NCBI RefSeq assembly: GCF_019924635.1
Contig: NZ_CP065037.1
Location: 3,658,001-3,722,000 of the forward strand
DNA length: 64,000 nt
Origin: Leifsonia sp. ZF2019
GTDB lineage: Bacteria; Actinomycetota; Actinomycetes; Actinomycetales; Microbacteriaceae
Direction: 5' to 3'
Under the pieces are notes generated by a model. It did not search any database and was not told where the DNA came from. It saw only the letters and a list, made by a program, of their open reading frames with translations. A program made the position numbers and the translations under genes. The stretch's first letter is position 1, and every line of letters starts with the position of its first letter. This document shows, in pieces, positions 4,974-50,258 of the stretch.

Positions 4974-7118
4974 TTACGCGTCGGCCCCGGCGAGCGCGGA
5001 CGCCTGGGCGAGGTCGGTGACCAGCTGATCGCCCGGGATGACCGGGACGAACTCGGCCTCGATCTCGGCGCGGTCGAGCAGGTCGTTCATGCGGCGCTGG
5101 CGCTGGCGCGGGATGAGCGTCACGACCGTGCCCTGCTTGCCGGCGCGGCCGGTGCGGCCGGAGCGGTGCAGATAGGTCTTGTACTCGTCCGGCGCATCGG
5201 CCTGGATGACCAGGTCGATGTCGTCCACGTGGATGCCGCGGGCGGCGACGTCCGTCGCGACGAGCACGTTGACGCGGCCGCTCGTCAGCTGCTGCAGGTT
5301 GCGGGTGCGCCGGGACTGGTTGAGGTCGCCGTGGAGGCTGACCGCGGGGATGCCCGCGTCGTCCAGCTGGTCCGCCAGCATCTCGGCGAAGGCGCGGGTA
5401 CGGGCGAAGATCAGCGTCTTGCCCTCGCGGTCGGCGAGCTGCTCGATGATGGCCGGCTTGTCACGGTGCTCGATCACGAGCACGCGGTGATCGATGGTGG
5501 AGGACGCCTGGTCCTCCCCCGCGACCTCGTGCACGGCGGGCTCGACGAGGAACTCGTCGACGAGCTGGGCGACCCCGGTGTCGAGGGTCGCCGAGAAGAG
5601 CAGCTTCTGGCCGCCCTCGGCGGTCTCGCGCAGGATGCGCTGCACCGGCTCGAGGAAGCCGAGGTCGCACATGTGGTCGGCCTCGTCGAGGACGCTGATG
5701 ACGACCTGGCTGAGGTCGAGACGACCCTGCTCCACGAGGTCCTCGATGCGGCCCGGGGTGCCGATCACGATGTCGACGCCGCGCTGAAGGGCACCGACCT
5801 GACGGCCCTGCGGCACGCCGCCGTAGATCTGGGTGGTGAAGAGGCCGACGCTGCGGGCGATCGGCTGCACCGTGCGGTCGATCTGGAGGGCCAGCTCGCG
5901 GGTGGGGGCGAGGATCAGGGCGCGCGGGGCGCGTCCGATCTGGCGCTTGCCGCCCGACTTGCCCGACTCCGCCCAGAGCTGCATGAGGCGCTCGACCAGA
6001 GGGGCGCCGAAGGCGATCGTCTTGCCGGAGCCGGTGCGGCCGCGGCCGAGCACGTCCTTGCCGGACATCACGTCGGGGGCTGTGGCGGCCTGGATCGGGA
6101 ACGGCCTCTCGGCGCCGAGCTCGGCGAGGGCGCGCACGACGTTGCCGCCGAAGCCCAGGTCGGCGAAGGTCACGCCGTCGACGTCCTCCGCCTGGATGGC
6201 GTCGGCCTCGAGCCGCTCGAGCACGACGTCGTCCTGCGCGTTGTAGGCGGGCTTGCCGTCGCGGGACGGAAAGAAGGAGGAGTCGCGACGCGGGGCACGG
6301 TCGCCGCGGTCGTCGGACGAACGACGCGGACGGTCGTCGTACTCGCGACGCGGCCGCTCGGCGCGGTCGTCGAAGGAACGTCGCGGGCGGTCGGAGAAGT
6401 CGCGACGCGGGCGGTCGGAGAAGTCGCGACGCGGGCGCTCGGCGCGGTCGCCGCGGTCGTCGAACGAACGACGCGGACGGTCGTCCTCGCGACGCGGGCG
6501 CTCGGCACGGTCGTCGAACGAACGGCGGGGACGGTCGTCATAGTCGCGACGCGGGGCACGGTCGCCGCGGTCGTCCAACGAACGACGGGGACGGTCGTCC
6601 TCGCGACGCGGGCGCTCGGCACGGTCGTCGAACGAACGGCGCATGCGGTCGGCACGGTCGTCCGCCGTGCGGCGCGGACGGTCGTCGTACTCGCGACGCG
6701 GAGCACGGTCGCCCCGGTCGTCGAAGGAACGACGTGGGCGGTCGTCGTACTCGCGACGCGGGGCCCGGTCGCCCCGGTCGTCGAACGACCGACGCGGGCG
6801 GTCGTCGTCGCGGCGCGGCCGGTCATCGCGGCCGGCGCGACCGCGGTTGTCCCACTCGCGCTCGGTGCGGCGGGCGTCTTTGCCGCGGGGCTCCCAGTTC
6901 GGGCGCTCTCCGCGACCACGGCCGCCGGCGCTGTCGGAGGCATCACGGGTGCCGTAGACGGAACGGCCGCGCTCGGCACTCGCGCCGCGCTTGGCCCGGT
7001 CGTCGGCGGACCAGCGGGCCTTCTTGCCCGCGGTCTGCTCCTCGGGGCGATAACCGCGGTGCTTGGGGCTCTTGCTGCCGACCTGCTTGGGCCGGTCGTT
7101 CTTCTTGTACGGGGGCAT
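4974..7118 (-). CDS. DEAD-box RNA helicase with long Arg/Asp-rich N-terminal repeats
   Basis: A 714-residue ATP-dependent RNA helicase. The catalytic core occupies about residues 300-705 and carries the expected motifs: GRTGSGKT (near residue 358), PTRELALQ, TPGR, VLDEADHM (near 476), FSATLD, LIFARTR, ATDVAARGIHVDD and HRSGRTGRAG. It resembles DeaD/RhlE-type helicases of cold adaptation and ribosome assembly. The core follows a basic, disordered N-terminal region (about residues 55-280) of repeated RPRRSFDDRGDR/APRREYDDRP units, likely an RNA-binding or phase-separating tail. The ATG at 7118 is preceded by AGGAAG; an ATG 27 bases upstream lacks a ribosome-binding site. A 5' leader of over 100 bases with a hairpin is possible. 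It is convergent with the phosphotransferase gene. Confidence 0.93.
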   Translation of the reverse strand: MPPYKKNDRPKQVGSKSPKHRGYRPEEQTAGKKARWSADDRAKRGASAERGRSVYGTRDASDSAGGRGRGERPNWEPRGKDARRTEREWDNRGRAGRDDRPRRDDDRPRRSFDDRGDRAPRREYDDRPRRSFDDRGDRAPRREYDDRPRRTADDRADRMRRSFDDRAERPRREDDRPRRSLDDRGDRAPRRDYDDRPRRSFDDRAERPRREDDRPRRSFDDRGDRAERPRRDFSDRPRRDFSDRPRRSFDDRAERPRREYDDRPRRSSDDRGDRAPRRDSSFFPSRDGKPAYNAQDDVVLERLEADAIQAEDVDGVTFADLGFGGNVVRALAELGAERPFPIQAATAPDVMSGKDVLGRGRTGSGKTIAFGAPLVERLMQLWAESGKSGGKRQIGRAPRALILAPTRELALQIDRTVQPIARSVGLFTTQIYGGVPQGRQVGALQRGVDIVIGTPGRIEDLVEQGRLDLSQVVISVLDEADHMCDLGFLEPVQRILRETAEGGQKLLFSATLDTGVAQLVDEFLVEPAVHEVAGEDQASSTIDHRVLVIEHRDKPAIIEQLADREGKTLIFARTRAFAEMLADQLDDAGIPAVSLHGDLNQSRRTRNLQQLTSGRVNVLVATDVAARGIHVDDIDLVIQADAPDEYKTYLHRSGRTGRAGKQGTVVTLIPRQRQRRMNDLLDRAEIEAEFVPVIPGDQLVTDLAQASALAGADA
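6290..6820 (-). repeat. Degenerate tandem repeats inside the helicase gene
   Basis: The stretch encoding the N-terminal tail repeats units of roughly 27-60 bases built from GGTCGTCG, GAACGACG and CTCGCGACGCGG blocks, giving RPRR-(E/S)(Y/F)DDR peptides. Copies are similar enough for slippage or recombination to change repeat number between strains. Confidence 0.75.
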
Positions 7119-27832: not shown

Positions 27833-28988
27833 GTGACGACACCTGGCATCCGGAACAGTGCGATCGGCGGGTGGGCCCCGCGCGTGCTCATCGGGGCGGT
27901 GATCCTGGCGGCGCTCCTGTCGATCGGGTTCGTGCTCTTCGGCGTGAGCGGCGAGACCCTGGGACGCGTGATCGCGACCAACATCACCCTTGTCGTGTTC
28001 GCCCTGCTCGTGTGGGTGGACTCGCTCATCGGCCGGTTCCGTCCCTCCTGGTTCGAGTTCGCGTCGCTCGCAGCGGACGCCTACCTGCTCCTCCTCTGGA
28101 TCGGGATCATCTGGCTCGGACCCTTCACCGTCGGCGACCAGTTCGCCTCGTTCTTCCTCGCGATCGGCACGCTGCTGTGGGTGCGCGCCATGCTGGGCCT
28201 CGGCGACCTGCTGCGCCTCATCTGGAACCGCTGGCGCAGCCGCCCGACGGACATCTTCGCCGTCATCGCGCTCGTCGCCATCGCCGTCGTCGCCGTGCTC
28301 GTGACTCTTCCGGCGCCGCACTCGCTCAACGACCTGTGGGATTACGAGTTCTACGGTCGCGTCATCGGCGCCGTCAGCATCGTCGCCGCGGTGTGCTTCG
28401 TCCTCGTGCCGTTGTGGGGCCTCCTCGGCTCTCGCGACCAGCGCGTCGCCGCCGCGCAGGCGCAGGCCGCGGCTCGGTCCGGATACGGGCAGGCTCCCTC
28501 CGCGGGCGCCCCCTACGGACAGGCACCGTACGGACAGGCACCGTACGGACAGGCACCCTACGGACAGGCACCCTACGGACAGGCACCCTACGGACAGGCC
28601 GCCAGCGCGGCCGCTCCGATCCCCGCCCCCGGTGCTCCGGCGGCTCCCGCGGCTCCCGCGGCTCCGGCGGCTCCCGCGGCAGCCCCCGCAACGCCCGCCT
28701 CCCCGGCTGGCCCCGCTCCGACCTCCCCGGCGGCGCCCGCCCCCGCGGGACCCGCCCCCCGGCGGCGCCCGCCCCGCGGCACCCGCCTCCTCGGCACCCG
28801 CCCCCGCGGCCACGCCGTCCCAGCCGCTCGCCTGGCCGCGCCTGACCGACGGCACTCCGCTCGCCGCCGGCCCGGACGGCCGGCCCGACTTCCACGCCGT
28901 CCCGGCGGGGAAGCAGCTCGGCTGGCCGCTGCACGTGGACGGCACCCCCGTCCCCGCCGGTCCCGACGGAGCCCCGCTCTACCGCTGA
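27833..28988 (+). CDS. Multi-pass membrane protein with YGQAP repeats; apparent frameshift
   Basis: Unrecognised membrane protein. Residues 1-205 hold about five hydrophobic helices (for example PRVLIGAVILAALLSIGFVL). They are followed by six tandem YGQAP pentapeptides and a Pro/Ala-rich linker. In the starting frame the sequence turns into Arg-rich shadow after a run of six C (28755-28760) and reads on to 29113. Skipping one C restores a frame that ends at 28988 with a plausible C-terminal domain, WPRLTDGTPLAAGPDG, then a second similar unit, WPLHVDGTPVPAGPDG, and LYR. The annotated span assumes that restored frame. The cause may be a sequencing error, a phase-variable homopolymer or a real mutation. 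The GTG start has GGAAAGG upstream. Function is unknown. Confidence 0.65.
28514..28603 (+). repeat. Six tandem 15-base repeats (YGQAP)
   Basis: Units TACGGACAGGCACC(G/C) start at 28514, 28529, 28544, 28559, 28574 and 28589; the last diverges at its end. They lie inside the membrane-protein gene and encode a Tyr/Gly/Gln/Pro-rich linker. Units 1-2 and 3-5 form two identical blocks, indicating recent duplication. Confidence 0.9.
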
Positions 28989-45225: not shown

Positions 45226-46299
45226 CTAGAGCTGGGCCATGATCTGGCGGGCGATCACGCGGCCGGCGCGGTTGGCGCCGATCGTGCTCGCCTGCGGGCC
45301 ATAGCCGGCGAGGAATATGCGGCTGTCCTGCCACGAAGCGCCTGAGGCGACCGTGAGGCCCCCCGCCTTCTCGCGGAGCTTGAGCGGCGCAAGATGCCGC
45401 AGCTCCGGACGGAAGCCCGTTGCCCAGATGATCGCATCGGCTCTGGTGAACGTGCCGTCCGGCCAGCGGACACCGTCGGTCTCGATGGCGCTGAACATCG
45501 GCCGCTCCACCAGCAGGCCGCGGTCGATGCCGGCGGCGATGCGGCGCGTGCGCGGCACCCCGGTGCCGCTGACGATGCTCGGGAGGGCCGCGCCGGCCCG
45601 TGCGGCGGCATCCTGCTGCTGCACGGCGGCCACCCCTCCCTCGATGGTGAGCTCCGACTCGTCCCGGAAGTCGACCGGACGTCGGGTCGCCCAGGCCAGG
45701 TCGGCCGCGACGCCCTCCAGCTCGAGGAGGAAGCCGATGGCGCTGGTGCCTCCGCCGACGACGACGACCGATTGGCCGGCGAACTCGTCGGCCGACACAT
45801 AGCCGGACGTATGCACATGCCGTCCTGAGAATGTGTTCATCCCGGGGTACCACGGGACGAACGGCGCGCCCCAGGTTCCGGAGGCGTTCACCACGACCCG
45901 GGTCGCCGTCTCCCCCGCGGAATGCGCGACGACCAGGTCGGCACCGCGATCGAAGACGCTCGCGACCGCGACCGGCCGCTGCACCTGCAGGCCGAAATGC
46001 TCCTCATAGCGGCGGTAGTAGCCGGCGACGATGTCCTTCGCAGGCAGGGAGCGGTCGGCGGTCTCGAAACTGAGCCCGATCTCGGCCATACCGGGAAGGT
46101 CGTTGACGTGATGGGCGCTGCCGAGCTTGAGCGCGTCCCAGCGGTGCTGCCACGCTCCGCCGGTGTGGGGGCCGCGGTCGAAGATCACGAAATCCTCGCC
46201 GGGAACCAGCTCGAAACGGCGGAGATAGTAGGCCACTGCAAGGCCCGCCTGGCCGGCACCGATGATGACCACCTGGGTCTCGGTCCTGGTCGTGGTCAC
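45226..46299 (-). CDS. Flavin-containing monooxygenase-like FAD/NAD(P)-binding oxidoreductase
   Basis: A 357-residue flavoprotein. The FAD-binding GxGxxG is VVIIGAGQAGLAVAYYLRRF (about 9-28); the NADPH-binding motif is VVVVGGGTSAIGFLLEL; WATGFRPELRHL matches the ATG(F/Y)xP motif. GPHTGGAWQHRWDALKLGSAHHVNDLPG is typical of the ArsO/Trk-type group of small monooxygenases. The substrate is unknown, and no arsenic genes are adjacent. It is divergent from a DUF3073 gene and convergent with the sugar operon. Confidence 0.85.
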   Translation of the reverse strand: MTTTRTETQVVIIGAGQAGLAVAYYLRRFELVPGEDFVIFDRGPHTGGAWQHRWDALKLGSAHHVNDLPGMAEIGLSFETADRSLPAKDIVAGYYRRYEEHFGLQVQRPVAVASVFDRGADLVVAHSAGETATRVVVNASGTWGAPFVPWYPGMNTFSGRHVHTSGYVSADEFAGQSVVVVGGGTSAIGFLLELEGVAADLAWATRRPVDFRDESELTIEGGVAAVQQQDAAARAGAALPSIVSGTGVPRTRRIAAGIDRGLLVERPMFSAIETDGVRWPDGTFTRADAIIWATGFRPELRHLAPLKLREKAGGLTVASGASWQDSRIFLAGYGPQASTIGANRAGRVIARQIMAQL

Positions 46300-46879: not shown

Positions 46880-47407
46880 CTATGCGACGAGCGTGGTGTG
46901 TGCCCGTGCGATCGTGTTCGCGCCGATGATGAACGTCGCGACCGCGGCCGAAGCGCTCGGAGGGATCTCGAGTCGTGGCACGGCGAGAGCGTGGACGGTG
47001 AAGAGGTAGCGGTGAGGGTGGTCCCCCTCCGGGGGCGCAGCGCCGTCGTAGGTCTCGTTGCCGAGGTCGTTCCGCAGCGTGTGAGCTCCCACGCCGAGGT
47101 CGGGGAGGGCGGCGGCATTCTCGGACAGCGCATCCGTCTCTGCAGGGATGTCGGTCACGATCCAGTGCCAGACCCCGGACGGGGTCGGCGCGTCGATGTC
47201 GAAGCAGCTGATGGCGAAGGACTGCGTTTCCGGCGGGGCGCCACGCCAGGTCAGAGCCGGGCTGGAGTCGGCACCGCCGATCCCCGCGGCCTTCTGGGGG
47301 AGCGGCATGGGGTCGCCGTCGCGCCCTGCGGTGGTGGTGACCGTGAACTCCGGTCGCCTCGGCATGAAGTCGTAGGGGTGCGGTGGGCGGGTGCGTTCCC
47401 AGGTCAT
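46880..47407 (-). CDS. YbhB/YbcL-family Raf kinase inhibitor-like (PEBP) protein
   Basis: A 175-residue phosphatidylethanolamine-binding-protein fold. Hallmarks are SSPALTWRGAPPETQSFAISCFDIDAPTPSGVWHWIVTDIP and GDHPHRYLFTVHALAV, forming the conserved anion-binding pocket. The function of bacterial members is unclear. Its ATG overlaps the leuD stop within ATGA (47404-47407), so it is the third gene of a leuC-leuD-ybhB operon, an unusual partnership. Confidence 0.9.
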   Translation of the reverse strand: MTWERTRPPHPYDFMPRRPEFTVTTTAGRDGDPMPLPQKAAGIGGADSSPALTWRGAPPETQSFAISCFDIDAPTPSGVWHWIVTDIPAETDALSENAAALPDLGVGAHTLRNDLGNETYDGAAPPEGDHPHRYLFTVHALAVPRLEIPPSASAAVATFIIGANTIARAHTTLVA

Positions 47408-48033
47408 CGATGGTCTCCTTGTCGCGGTGATCGTTCTGGGCGTCCGGCGGGGAGCCAGGGGTGCCTGCGGTTCTCATGACGGCGGATGATGTCGTCGAGC
47501 GTGAGCGTGACGGCGATCGGGTCCAGTCCGTTCACGAGGTTGTGGTGCGGTGCGTCATCGAGGCGGAAGGGAGCGTCTCTGATGCCGGCTGATTCGCAGG
47601 TCACGGTTCGCGCGACCACATCGATGCGCACGGGCGCTGCCACGTCGGCCTCCACCGCATCCATGATGCGATCGAGGACGTCGGGCTCGACTTCGACGGG
47701 GACGAGCCCTTCTTGCGGAAGGTTCGTGCGGTGGATGTCGGCGATGCGTGAACTGATCACCGCTCGGAAACCACCATCGCGGAGCGCCCAGACGGCGTGT
47801 TGACGCGAGGAACCGCAGCCGAAGTTGGGCCCGGCGACGAGGACGCTGGCGCCGGCGCGGGCGGGGTCGTTGAGGGGGAAGTCGGGATCCTTTCGCCAGT
47901 TCTGGAAGAGCCCTGGTCCATAGCCGTCGCGGTGGATCCGTTTCATCCACGGTGCAGGGATGATCTGGTCGGTGTCGATGTTCTCACGGCGCAGCACGAC
48001 GGCTGTCCCGGTGACGGTGGTGACGGGGTGCAT
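47404..48033 (-). CDS. leuD: 3-isopropylmalate dehydratase small subunit (LeuD-like)
   Basis: A 209-residue swivel-domain subunit. TGTAVVLRRENIDTDQIIPAPWMKRI, GPNFGCGSSRQHAVWALRDGGFRAVISSRIADI and NGLDPIAVTL are the LeuD signatures. Together with LeuC it isomerises 2- to 3-isopropylmalate in leucine synthesis; related pairs act on citramalate or other malate derivatives, and no other leu gene is nearby. The ATG at 48033 has AGGAG upstream and lies 11 bases after the leuC stop. Confidence 0.9.
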   Translation of the reverse strand: MHPVTTVTGTAVVLRRENIDTDQIIPAPWMKRIHRDGYGPGLFQNWRKDPDFPLNDPARAGASVLVAGPNFGCGSSRQHAVWALRDGGFRAVISSRIADIHRTNLPQEGLVPVEVEPDVLDRIMDAVEADVAAPVRIDVVARTVTCESAGIRDAPFRLDDAPHHNLVNGLDPIAVTLTLDDIIRRHENRRHPWLPAGRPERSPRQGDHR

Positions 48034-48044
48034 CGTCGCGGCTC

Positions 48045-49451
48045 CTAGTGCGTTCCGATGGGTGACAGGGTGCTCGGCGTGGTGAGATGCCCGGCGATGG
48101 CCGTGGCGGCCGCGGTCTCGGGTGAGACGAGATGGGTGCGGGCGCCGGGTCCCTGCCGTGATTCGAAGTTGCGGTTGGAGGTCGAGGCGGAGTGCATCCC
48201 GGTCGGAACGGTGTCGCCGTTCATCCCGACACACATCGAGCAGCCCGGGGATCTCCATTCGAAGCCGGCGTCGAGGAAGATCCGGTCGAGACCTTCCTCT
48301 TCGGCCATCCGTTTGGTCTGCGCGGAACCGGGGACGACGATCGCACGGATGCTCTCGGCGATCGAGCGCCCGTCGACGATTCGGGCCGCCGATCTCAGGT
48401 CGTCGATCCTGCCGTTGGTACAGGAGCCGATGAAGACGGTGTGGATCGGGATGTCGGCGATCGCCTGCCCCGGTCGCAGGCCCATGTAGGCCAGCGCCGC
48501 TTCCGCGGCGGCGCGCTGCTGCGCGTCGGGGAACTCGGAGGGGATCGCGCCACCGACGGAGACGGACTGTCCCGGGTTGGTGCCCCAGCTGACCATCGGA
48601 CCGACGCCGGTCACGTCGACGACGACCTCTCGGTCGAATGCCGCTCCGTCATCCGTCCGCACGGAGCGCCAGTAGGCGACCGCCTGCTCCCACAGCTCTC
48701 CGCGCGGGGACCGGTCGCGGCCCTTCAGATACGCGAACGTGGTCTCGTCGGGTGCGACCAGGCCGGAGCGCGCGCCGGCCTCGATGGCCATGTTGCAGAG
48801 TGTCATCCTCCCCTCCATGGTCAGCGCGGTCACGGGGTCGCCCCGGAACTCGATCAGATGACCGGTCGCCCCGCCGTGGCCGATCCGGGCGATGATCGCC
48901 AGGGCCAGGTCCTTGGCGGTGGCGTCCGCGTGGGGTGCGCCCACCAACGTCACCGACATCGTCTTCGGCCGGTCGACGCGGACCGTCTGGGTTGCGAGCA
49001 CGTGTTCGACCTGGCTCGTGCCGATGCCGAAGGCGATGGCTCCGAAGGCTCCGTGGGTCGCCGTGTGGCTGTCCCCGCACACGATCGTCATGCCCGGTTG
49101 GGTCAGACCCATCTCGGGACCGATCACGTGCACGATTCCCTGCCCCGCCGATCCCATCGGGTGCAGTTCCACGCCGAACTCGGCACAGTTCTCACGCTGG
49201 AGCCGCAGTTGCTCGGCGGCGAGCGCGTCCGCCAGGGGCAGATCGAGGCCGCTGGTGGGAACGTCGTGGTCGGCCGTGCCCACCGTGAGGTCGGGGCGGC
49301 GAACCCGTCGCCCGGCCTGCCGGAGCCCCTCGAACGGCTGCGGTGAGGTCACTTCGTGGATGAGATGCATGTCGACATAGAGCAGGTCGCCCTCCGCCTG
49401 GTGGAGGACGTGCTCGTTCCAGACTTTGTCGATCAACGTCATGGCTGTCAT
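48045..49451 (-). CDS. leuC: 3-isopropylmalate dehydratase large subunit (LeuC-like)
   Basis: A 468-residue aconitase-family subunit. The [4Fe-4S] cysteines are in [17 protein letters not shown] and [13 protein letters not shown], and the substrate region is [22 protein letters not shown]. Typical start [40 protein letters not shown]. The ATG at 49451 is preceded by AGGAGG at 7 bases. The promoter region carries four tandem 13-base repeats, while no regulator gene lies beside it; this differs from the usual actinobacterial IclR-leuC arrangement. It could be a second, specialised isomerase. Confidence 0.92.
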
Positions 49452-49541
49452 TCGTGGTCCTCCTACTCGAGGTCGCGCGGGACGCGGGCGGTGGCGGGCG
49501 ATGACAGAGCTCGTCGGGTCAGGCATCGACCCCCAACAGAA

Positions 49542-49593
49542 TTGGGATACCAGAATGGTACACCACGTTGGTATCCCAACTCGGTGCACCAGA
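49542..49593. repeat. Four tandem 13-base operator-like repeats upstream of leuC
   Basis: Units start at 49542, 49555, 49568 and 49581 with no spacer. Each carries a 10-base near-palindrome of TGGTNNACCA type: TGGGATACCA, TGGTACACCA, TGGTATCCCA, CGGTGCACCA. Units 1 and 3 also form a perfect 11-base inverted repeat TTGGGATACCA/TGGTATCCCAA. The array begins 91 bases before the leuC start, in the promoter region. Confidence 0.75.
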
Positions 49594-49649
49594 ATGACCA
49601 CGCTGGACAGAGCTTTCCACCGACGTCGCGGCGGGCCGGGGCTCGGCGC

Positions 49650-50258
49650 TTACAGCCACCCCTGGCGGGTGGCGATGAGCACCGCGTCCGAACGATTGCG
49701 CGCGGCGGTCTTGCCGATCGCGCTCGACAGGTGATTGCGCACCGTTCCCTCGCTGAGGTGGAGCCGTCCGGCGATGTCGGCGATCGTCGCTCCGTCGCCC
49801 GCGAGCGCCAGCACCTCCGCCTCCCGTACGGTCAGCGGAGAGACTCCGGAAGCGAGCGACTCGGCAGCGAGCGTCGGGTCGACCACGCGCAGGCCGGACG
49901 CGACTCGGCGCACCGCGTCGGCGAGCTGACCCGACGGCGTGTCCTTGACGATGAAGCCGGACGCGCCGGCCTCCATCGCCCGCCGCAGATAGCCGGGACG
50001 CCCGAAGGTCGTGACGATGAGCGACCGGCACTCCGGCACCGTCACGCGGAGCGCTGCGGCGACCTGGATGCCATCGAGACCGGGCATCTCGACGTCGAGC
50101 AGGGCGACGTCGGCCGCGGATGCGAGCGCAGCCTCGACGACCTCGTCGCCGCGGCCGACCTGCGCGACCACCTGCAGGTCGGCTTCGAGGTCGAGCAGCG
50201 CGGCGAGCGCGCCCCGCACGAGCGCCTGGTCGTCGGCGAGCAAGAGGCGGATGGTCAT
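49650..50258 (-). CDS. NarL/LuxR-family response regulator (DesR-like)
   Basis: A 202-residue response regulator. The receiver domain (about 1-120) has the acidic pair Asp9-Asp10, phosphoacceptor Asp55 in ALLDVEMPGLDG and a conserved Lys in FIVKDTP. A LuxR-type HTH follows (about 138-200; LTVREAEVLALAGDGATIADIAGRLHLSEGTVRNHLSSAIGK). It is coupled to the upstream kinase gene by an ATGA overlap (50255-50258). It probably regulates the ABC-2 exporter genes at the start of the same operon. Confidence 0.93.
   Translation of the reverse strand: MTIRLLLADDQALVRGALAALLDLEADLQVVAQVGRGDEVVEAALASAADVALLDVEMPGLDGIQVAAALRVTVPECRSLIVTTFGRPGYLRRAMEAGASGFIVKDTPSGQLADAVRRVASGLRVVDPTLAAESLASGVSPLTVREAEVLALAGDGATIADIAGRLHLSEGTVRNHLSSAIGKTAARNRSDAVLIATRQGWL

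Follow-up and report, generated by a model that had tools for sequence, protein, structure and literature searches.

An array of four abutting 13-bp repeats lies upstream of a leuCD paralogue in the window (the whole 64-kb stretch that was analysed, G000:C1:3658001-3722000), and a second array of the same period was found in the same genome beside a gene coding for a GntR/FCD regulator. The leuC array would probably serve (at a rough probability of 0.84) as the multi-site operator of this one GntR/FCD (VanR-like) factor, encoded 1.8 Mb away, which would repress both the gntR/MFS pair and leuCD2-PEBP until its effector is sensed; direct binding, repression, the effector and cooperativity are what we infer for this system. 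A literature search of titles and abstract openings, with most subscription journals outside its coverage, turned up nothing about this operator or about the regulator.

Units, register and position of the leuC array

The features of the locus, in window coordinates, are as follows.

49542..49554, no strand: array unit 1, TTGGGATACCAGA, core GGGATACC at 49544-49551, 7/8 against GGTATACC
49555..49567, no strand: array unit 2, ATGGTACACCACG, core GGTACACC at 49557-49564, 7/8 against GGTATACC
49568..49580, no strand: array unit 3, TTGGTATCCCAAC, core GGTATCCC at 49570-49577, 7/8 against GGTATACC
49581..49593, no strand: array unit 4, TCGGTGCACCAGA, core GGTGCACC at 49583-49590, 6/8 against GGTATACC
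49555..49560, minus strand: TACCAT, a -10-like TANNNT inside the array; candidate promoter element
49459..49464, minus strand: leuC ribosome-binding site AGGAGG, 7 nt ahead of the ATG
48045..49451, minus strand: leuC paralogue (LeuC2) of 468 aa, the large subunit of a hydro-lyase in the aconitase family
47404..48033, minus strand: leuD paralogue (LeuD2), start codon placed at residue 76 of the listed ORF
46880..47407, minus strand: PEBP/YbhB-like gene, with a 4-bp overlap with leuD and taken as part of the same operon

The sequence-only reading had described four abutting 13-base units beginning at 49542, 49555, 49568 and 49581, and they were read there directly, with a period of exactly 13 bp. 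The cores match GGTATACC at 7, 7, 7 and 6 of 8 positions (27/32 in total), and the flanking 13-mers on either side drop to 2/8. The GGTATACC consensus was derived from other loci, and the test is thus independent of the array itself. The near-palindrome that had been ascribed to every unit is exact (TGGTNNACCA) in unit 2 alone, while units 1, 3 and 4 each depart from it by one mismatch. The core variant of unit 4 recurs as a unit of the gntR/MFS array of this genome.

A chance origin of the array was considered and rejected, since its 27/32 compares with a maximum of 20/32, never exceeded, across 12 Mb of simulated DNA (12 million positions with the dinucleotide composition of the window). Within the 64-kb window, the runners-up at the 13-bp period (23 and 22 of 32) are both the array shifted by one unit, and a scan of periods 8 to 30 yielded nothing above 20/32 apart from whole-unit shifts of the array. 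The window also has long, degenerate tandem repeats (period 15-147 bp) at 6276-6808 and 28484-28810, unrelated to the leuC array.

Counted from the ATG of leuC at 49451, the array lies 91-142 bp upstream. The TACCAT inside it is the sole TANNNT on the leuC strand across the whole 198-bp gap 49452-49649, and a full sigma-70 promoter scan of 49400-49700 found none. On the other side of the gap is a gene for a LuxR-type response regulator (49650-50258), on the minus strand like leuC; 57 bp separate its end from the array. The earlier statement that no regulator gene is adjacent is thus correct for GntR genes, none of which adjoins, and incorrect for this response regulator. The seven neighbours scanned include the response regulator, a histidine kinase, leuCD, PEBP and a flavin oxidoreductase, and no replication initiator gene is among them. 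The product of 45226-46299 is a flavin-dependent oxidoreductase which is ArsO-like, yet under the family cut-off (268.6 vs 425 bits).

The second array and the regulator beside it

The sequence-only reading had proposed a genome search for 13-bp-spaced sites, and this search led to the second array and the regulator. The array, GGTGCACC-N5-GGTATACC-N5-GGTATACC, was located by pattern search of the 4.34-Mb genome at C1:1872837-1872870, 1.8 Mb from the leuC array. Two divergent genes flank it, one on the minus strand for a GntR/FCD regulator and one on the plus strand for an MFS transporter, and the array takes up most of the short distance between their start codons; the gene pair is located between rimM and trmD.

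G000:C1:1872161-1872820, minus strand: gntR, GntR/FCD regulator gene

The suggestion of a distant GntR-type protein in the sequence-only reading is supported by this GntR/FCD gene, 1.8 Mb away beside a second 13-bp array. When up to one mismatch was allowed, pairs of GGTRYACC units 13 bp apart occurred in the 4.34 Mb only at the leuC array, at the gntR/MFS array and at one site in a coding frame, the searches having used fixed patterns or single proteins, which arrays with another core or period would escape. The coding-frame site, C1:2345182, was rejected as a further two-unit target on account of its location. There are 7 copies of GGTATACC in the genome, 2 of them in the gntR/MFS array, and no common theme was noticed among the other five single sites. 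The leuC array, which has no perfect GGTATACC unit, is weaker than the gntR/MFS arrays.

The regulator, a protein of 220 residues, matches Pfam GntR (3.1e-15) and FCD (1.9e-24), and its structural model (pLDDT 92.3) exhibits a winged helix and a helical C-terminal domain. The nearest solved folds found by Foldseek are PmiR of Pseudomonas (7xp1, E 9e-11) and the VanR protein Atu1419 of Agrobacterium (6za0, E 2.5e-9), the top seven rows being taken by PmiR, Atu1419 and a Brucella GntR. The recognition helix SRTP[LI]R is conserved across 19 and across 33 aligned sequences. Among named proteins, the closest homologues of the regulator belong to Leifsonia, so that the genome probably comes from a Leifsonia-like bacterium of the Microbacteriaceae. 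The FCD metal site consists of one Asp and three His; H126, H170 and H192 are invariant here, and the residue four before H126 is Gly122, invariant in the 19 sequences and nearly so in the 33. The C-terminal helices of the model comprise six long ones and one of 6 residues, the VanR group being defined by six instead of seven (PMC7797058). Helix 1 begins at residue 7 in the model, the 19 aligned sequences have at most 6 extra N-terminal residues, and an N-terminal extension of about 32 residues like that of NanR is absent from the regulator and from all 19. In the orthologue of L209 (G014, 1438-1500), which is not one of the 19, the start may lie behind the best ribosome-binding site, 18 residues further upstream.

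The association between array and regulator extends throughout the genus. An orthologue of gntR is present at E 1e-30 in 27 of the 28 genus genomes, its own included, and an array adjoins the gene in all 27, at loci found via the regulator protein and not via the pattern; palindromic GT-N(2-3)-AC sites resembling GGTATACC stand just upstream of gntR in each of them. The three-unit score in 26 gntR loci is 24/24 (three perfect GGTATACC units) in 18 and 20-23 in 8. G022, the sole genus genome without gntR, is also the sole one without a match to the pattern. In G017 gntR is broken and the array is retained, with two perfect units and one near-perfect unit; the portion with the recognition helix is missing there and the frame is altered (L221, approximately 1350-1800), a natural loss of the regulator in one species. 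A wider sample was provided by 30 loci read from a 249-genome pattern search, with some hits outside the genus (G034, G116, G066, G207 and second hits of a few genomes) left unread. All 17 loci which scored at least 20/24 hold a GntR frame with the same helix motif, as opposed to none of the 13 which scored 18 or less; 8 of the 17 are outside the genus, and 3 of these 8 belong to two other families.

The spacing is likewise conserved. With no period presumed, the 26 upstream regions located via the protein have 49 steps between neighbouring cores, of which 48 are 13 bp and one is 26; the addition of eight pattern-found regions and L005 brings this to 62 of 64, with one step of 26 and one of 21. 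All 26 gntR/MFS arrays retain a TANNNT between units 2 and 3 (23 TAGGGT and three variants occurring once each), 6-7 nt ahead of the presumed MFS start codon, an arrangement in which the MFS transcript would be leaderless and its -10 element covered by the operator. The three closest relatives (L198, L197 and L196) have degenerate extra units on the gntR side which keep to the 13-bp register, so that arrays may expand or degenerate one unit at a time.

Upstream regions of other leuC genes served as controls. Among the matches listed, at least 80 LeuC loci reached a maximum of 16/24 (up to 500 bp, some contigs being shorter), the array of L005 falling outside the scored stretch, beyond its gntR. 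In a second LeuC set, the 27 of 29 loci scored were all at or below 13/24, L085 and L105 having been left out when the script did not find the LeuC motif. The region upstream of the other leuC in G000 scores 13/24.

The LeuCD paralogue and its links to the regulator

The genes following the array had been called leuCD, and leuCD genes they are, yet they form an extra pair: the other leuC of the genome (C1:1833293-1834693), with leuD adjoining, is 57% identical to the window copy. In a quick tree of 159 LeuC proteins the window LeuC falls in a clade of 44 rows (SH-aLRT 99), its companions being proteins of Streptomyces, Actinomadura, Streptacidiphilus and others, and the other G000 LeuC groups with the LeuC of its order. 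The motif ADIH, followed by NLPQEG or NLPTEG, is found in all four LeuD2 (window, G075, L005 and L006; three distinct sequences, those of L005 and L006 being identical), as opposed to ADIF in 94/94 other LeuD, LeuD having been located in 98 of the 116 loci examined. Judged from sequence, the window leuCD is a separate paralogue and not the housekeeping copy of isopropylmalate isomerase. The window proteins pass the NCBIfam cut-offs for leuC and leuD, which does not fix the substrate; the change from ADIF to ADIH in LeuD2 suggests a different one, and a changed LeuCD2 substrate is likely. The array also offers a functional handle on a clade of LeuCD paralogues whose listed members bear leucine-synthesis names. 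Two of the leuC relatives on Streptomyces plasmids adjoin adenylation-domain genes, a setting that shed no light on the function.

The distribution of LeuC2 is sparse. None of the other 27 genomes of the genus has it at E 1e-195, and at E 1e-196 or better it occurs in 2 of 398 sampled family genomes, G000 and G075; within this sample an array directly ahead of leuC is known from G000 only. The sequence-only reading had offered conservation of the repeats ahead of orthologous leuC genes as a check, and the outcome is divided between two lineages. The closest LeuC among the matches listed (at least 80 loci), 67% identical, comes from L005, an actinobacterial metagenome contig of 52% GC as against 72% in the window. 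Its gene order is a GntR/FCD gene, leuC and leuD, and its GntR is 53% identical to that of G000. The operator lies upstream of the gntR start, GGTATACC-N5-GGTATCCC, with cores 13 bp apart and a score of 15/16; it has two units and stands ahead of gntR rather than directly ahead of leuC. L006 shows this operon again, truncated where its contig stops, and is not an independent case. A relative of the L005 GntR was found at E 1e-38 only in G000 among 396 phylum genomes, a sample with few genomes of the family of G000. The leuC array matches the L005 operator at 22/24 and the gntR/MFS arrays at 21/24 at best (median 18, 52 comparisons), a difference so small that the comparison falls short of shared descent for the leuC and L005 promoters. 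The same kind of regulator, the operator and leuCD thus co-occur twice, in G000 and in L005, and are arranged differently.

G075, of the same family, has the nearest leuC orthologue with readable surroundings (79% identical), in a run gntR-PEBP-leuC-leuD, and here the conservation fails: no array was found upstream of the leuC, PEBP or gntR genes, and the GntR is a different one. This adjacent FCD GntR (L138 8380-9171) is 33% identical to the G000 regulator, and its upstream motif, ATTCGTC-N9-GACGAAT, is unlike GGTATACC. A GntR of the G075 type was rejected as the regulator of the array, its best match in G000 being only 41% identical and its promoter motif being the one just given. A PEBP/YbhB-like gene accompanies the leuCD2 run twice, after leuD in the window and before leuC in G075 (L138 9168-9734; Pfam 9.2e-38).

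Could a different FCD-type GntR of G000, with a similar GGTATACC-like specificity, read the leuC array? Candidates are not lacking, as 22 places in G000 match the G075 GntR at E 1e-3, and TKGT/ACMA boxes are the consensus common to the FadR subfamily (PMC4494728). Nevertheless, the sole other array that the pattern searches found in the genome adjoins the gntR at C1:1872161-1872820, and the L005 operon couples a 53%-identical relative of that very regulator with leuCD, which makes another reader of the array unlikely. About equally improbable is that the array has fallen out of use, either as a relic or as something that arrived together with the leuCD2 operon. The weaker units and the lack of leuCD2 (at E 1e-195) in the 27 other genomes of the genus would agree with such a history, but all four units match the core at 6-7 of its 8 positions and keep strictly to the register, and the array overlaps the sole TANNNT of the gap.

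The remaining explanations fare worse than these. The adjacent response regulator, whose gene is the closest of any regulator and shares the strand of leuC, might bind the array and control leuC; this is very unlikely, as arrays at the loci read accompany a GntR gene and not a response regulator, and GT-N2-AC palindromes are a trait of the FadR subfamily (PMC4494728). A role as RNA, in which the repeat would fold into a hairpin ahead of leuC and act as attenuator or terminator after the response-regulator gene, is slightly less credible still. Units 1 and 3 pair on the leuC strand, but tandem palindromes do so automatically; the 198-nt gap folds with z = -2.04 (6/200 shuffles equally stable) and the genes to either side share the minus strand, but no terminator-like site and no Rfam match were found at the gap, and at gntR/MFS the start codons flanking the array diverge, which makes a common RNA role implausible. 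Finally, the label 'iteron-like' does not survive: the units have an iteron-like size and are tandem direct repeats, but they are palindromic, lie inside a 4.24-Mb contig with no replication gene among the seven scanned neighbours, and belong to a kind of array which is a promoter-region element beside gntR in 27 genomes, so that iterons of a replication origin have a negligible chance.

Proposed mechanism and comparison with known operators

Under the preferred reading, in which the GntR/FCD factor acts on both arrays, each 8-bp GGTRYACC core would be the site of one dimer. Dimers 13 bp apart would each stand about a quarter turn from their neighbour (approximately 86 degrees per dimer, at 10.5 bp per turn), and the four sites would span about five helical turns. 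Because of its position, the occupied array would block RNA polymerase by covering the TANNNT -10-like element at MFS and at leuC. Binding of the effector by the FCD domain would cause the dimers to leave, and the transporter, the regulator and, in G000, leuCD2-PEBP would then be made. PmiR is a sensor of 2-methylisocitrate; on the basis of this ligand and of the enzyme family of LeuCD2, the effector would most likely be a hydroxy-di- or tricarboxylate, being both the MFS cargo and the LeuCD2 substrate.

A broader picture is possible, and it is put forward tentatively. A small, undescribed GntR lineage may stack its dimers helically on 13-bp palindromes, four per superhelical turn and without the NanR extension, and may sense the substrate of LeuCD2 as a new enzyme of the aconitase family that is not an isopropylmalate isomerase. 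The MFS transporter, the regulator and the enzyme would then constitute a scattered uptake-and-use module, in which the operator code persists while the enzyme comes and goes. Spacing and stoichiometry could both be addressed using a single protein of 220 residues and 60 bp of DNA.

The steps of the NanR operator are shorter than 13 bp. The E. coli NanR system is otherwise the closest precedent: it is an FCD GntR with side-by-side GGTATA cores, whose several dimers share a short operator and need close spacing, three of them binding (GGTATA)3 cooperatively about half a turn apart (PMC8012715). The sequence-only reading had noted that 13 bp is a non-integral turn and that the sites rotate, and the NanR case shows that such a period is no argument against cooperativity. 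The NanR sites are direct repeats (PMC4494728), whereas full palindromes follow one another at a 13-bp step here. Cooperativity of NanR requires a 32-residue N-terminal extension (PMC8012715), in contrast to the regulator of G000, in which helix 1 is modelled from residue 7; cooperation between its dimers, if any, would therefore come about by other means.

The arrays share with operators of the FadR subfamily the GT-N2-AC palindrome and, at gntR/MFS, the location within a divergon (PMC4494728). In this subfamily, further half-sites accompany the palindromes at 7-12 nt from their centre (Suvorova et al. 2015, PMC4494728), a distance which fits the present arrays, where the near half of the next unit is 9-13 nt from the centre. 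Those extra boxes are weaker half-sites, with a role which that article leaves open, while the boxes described here are three to four full sites in a fixed 13-bp register, conserved across the genus and beyond. Atu1419, which together with PmiR is nearest in fold to the G000 regulator, binds a 10-bp palindrome and, as a tetramer, can loop palindromes 190 bp apart (PMC7797058), in contrast to the abutting units of the array.

UxuR-type operators have a TTGGTATACCAA core, and we know of no 13-bp tandem array among them. Their core palindrome is the same as that of the array, with a 2-nt spacer between GT and AC (spacer from PMC4494728), and they serve a different regulon. As for leuCD itself, in actinobacteria these genes are controlled by NdgR, of the IclR family (PMC4340878); an IclR gene, of which the window has none near leuC, adjoins leuC in L229 (by Pfam), with look-alikes in L230, L231 and L233.
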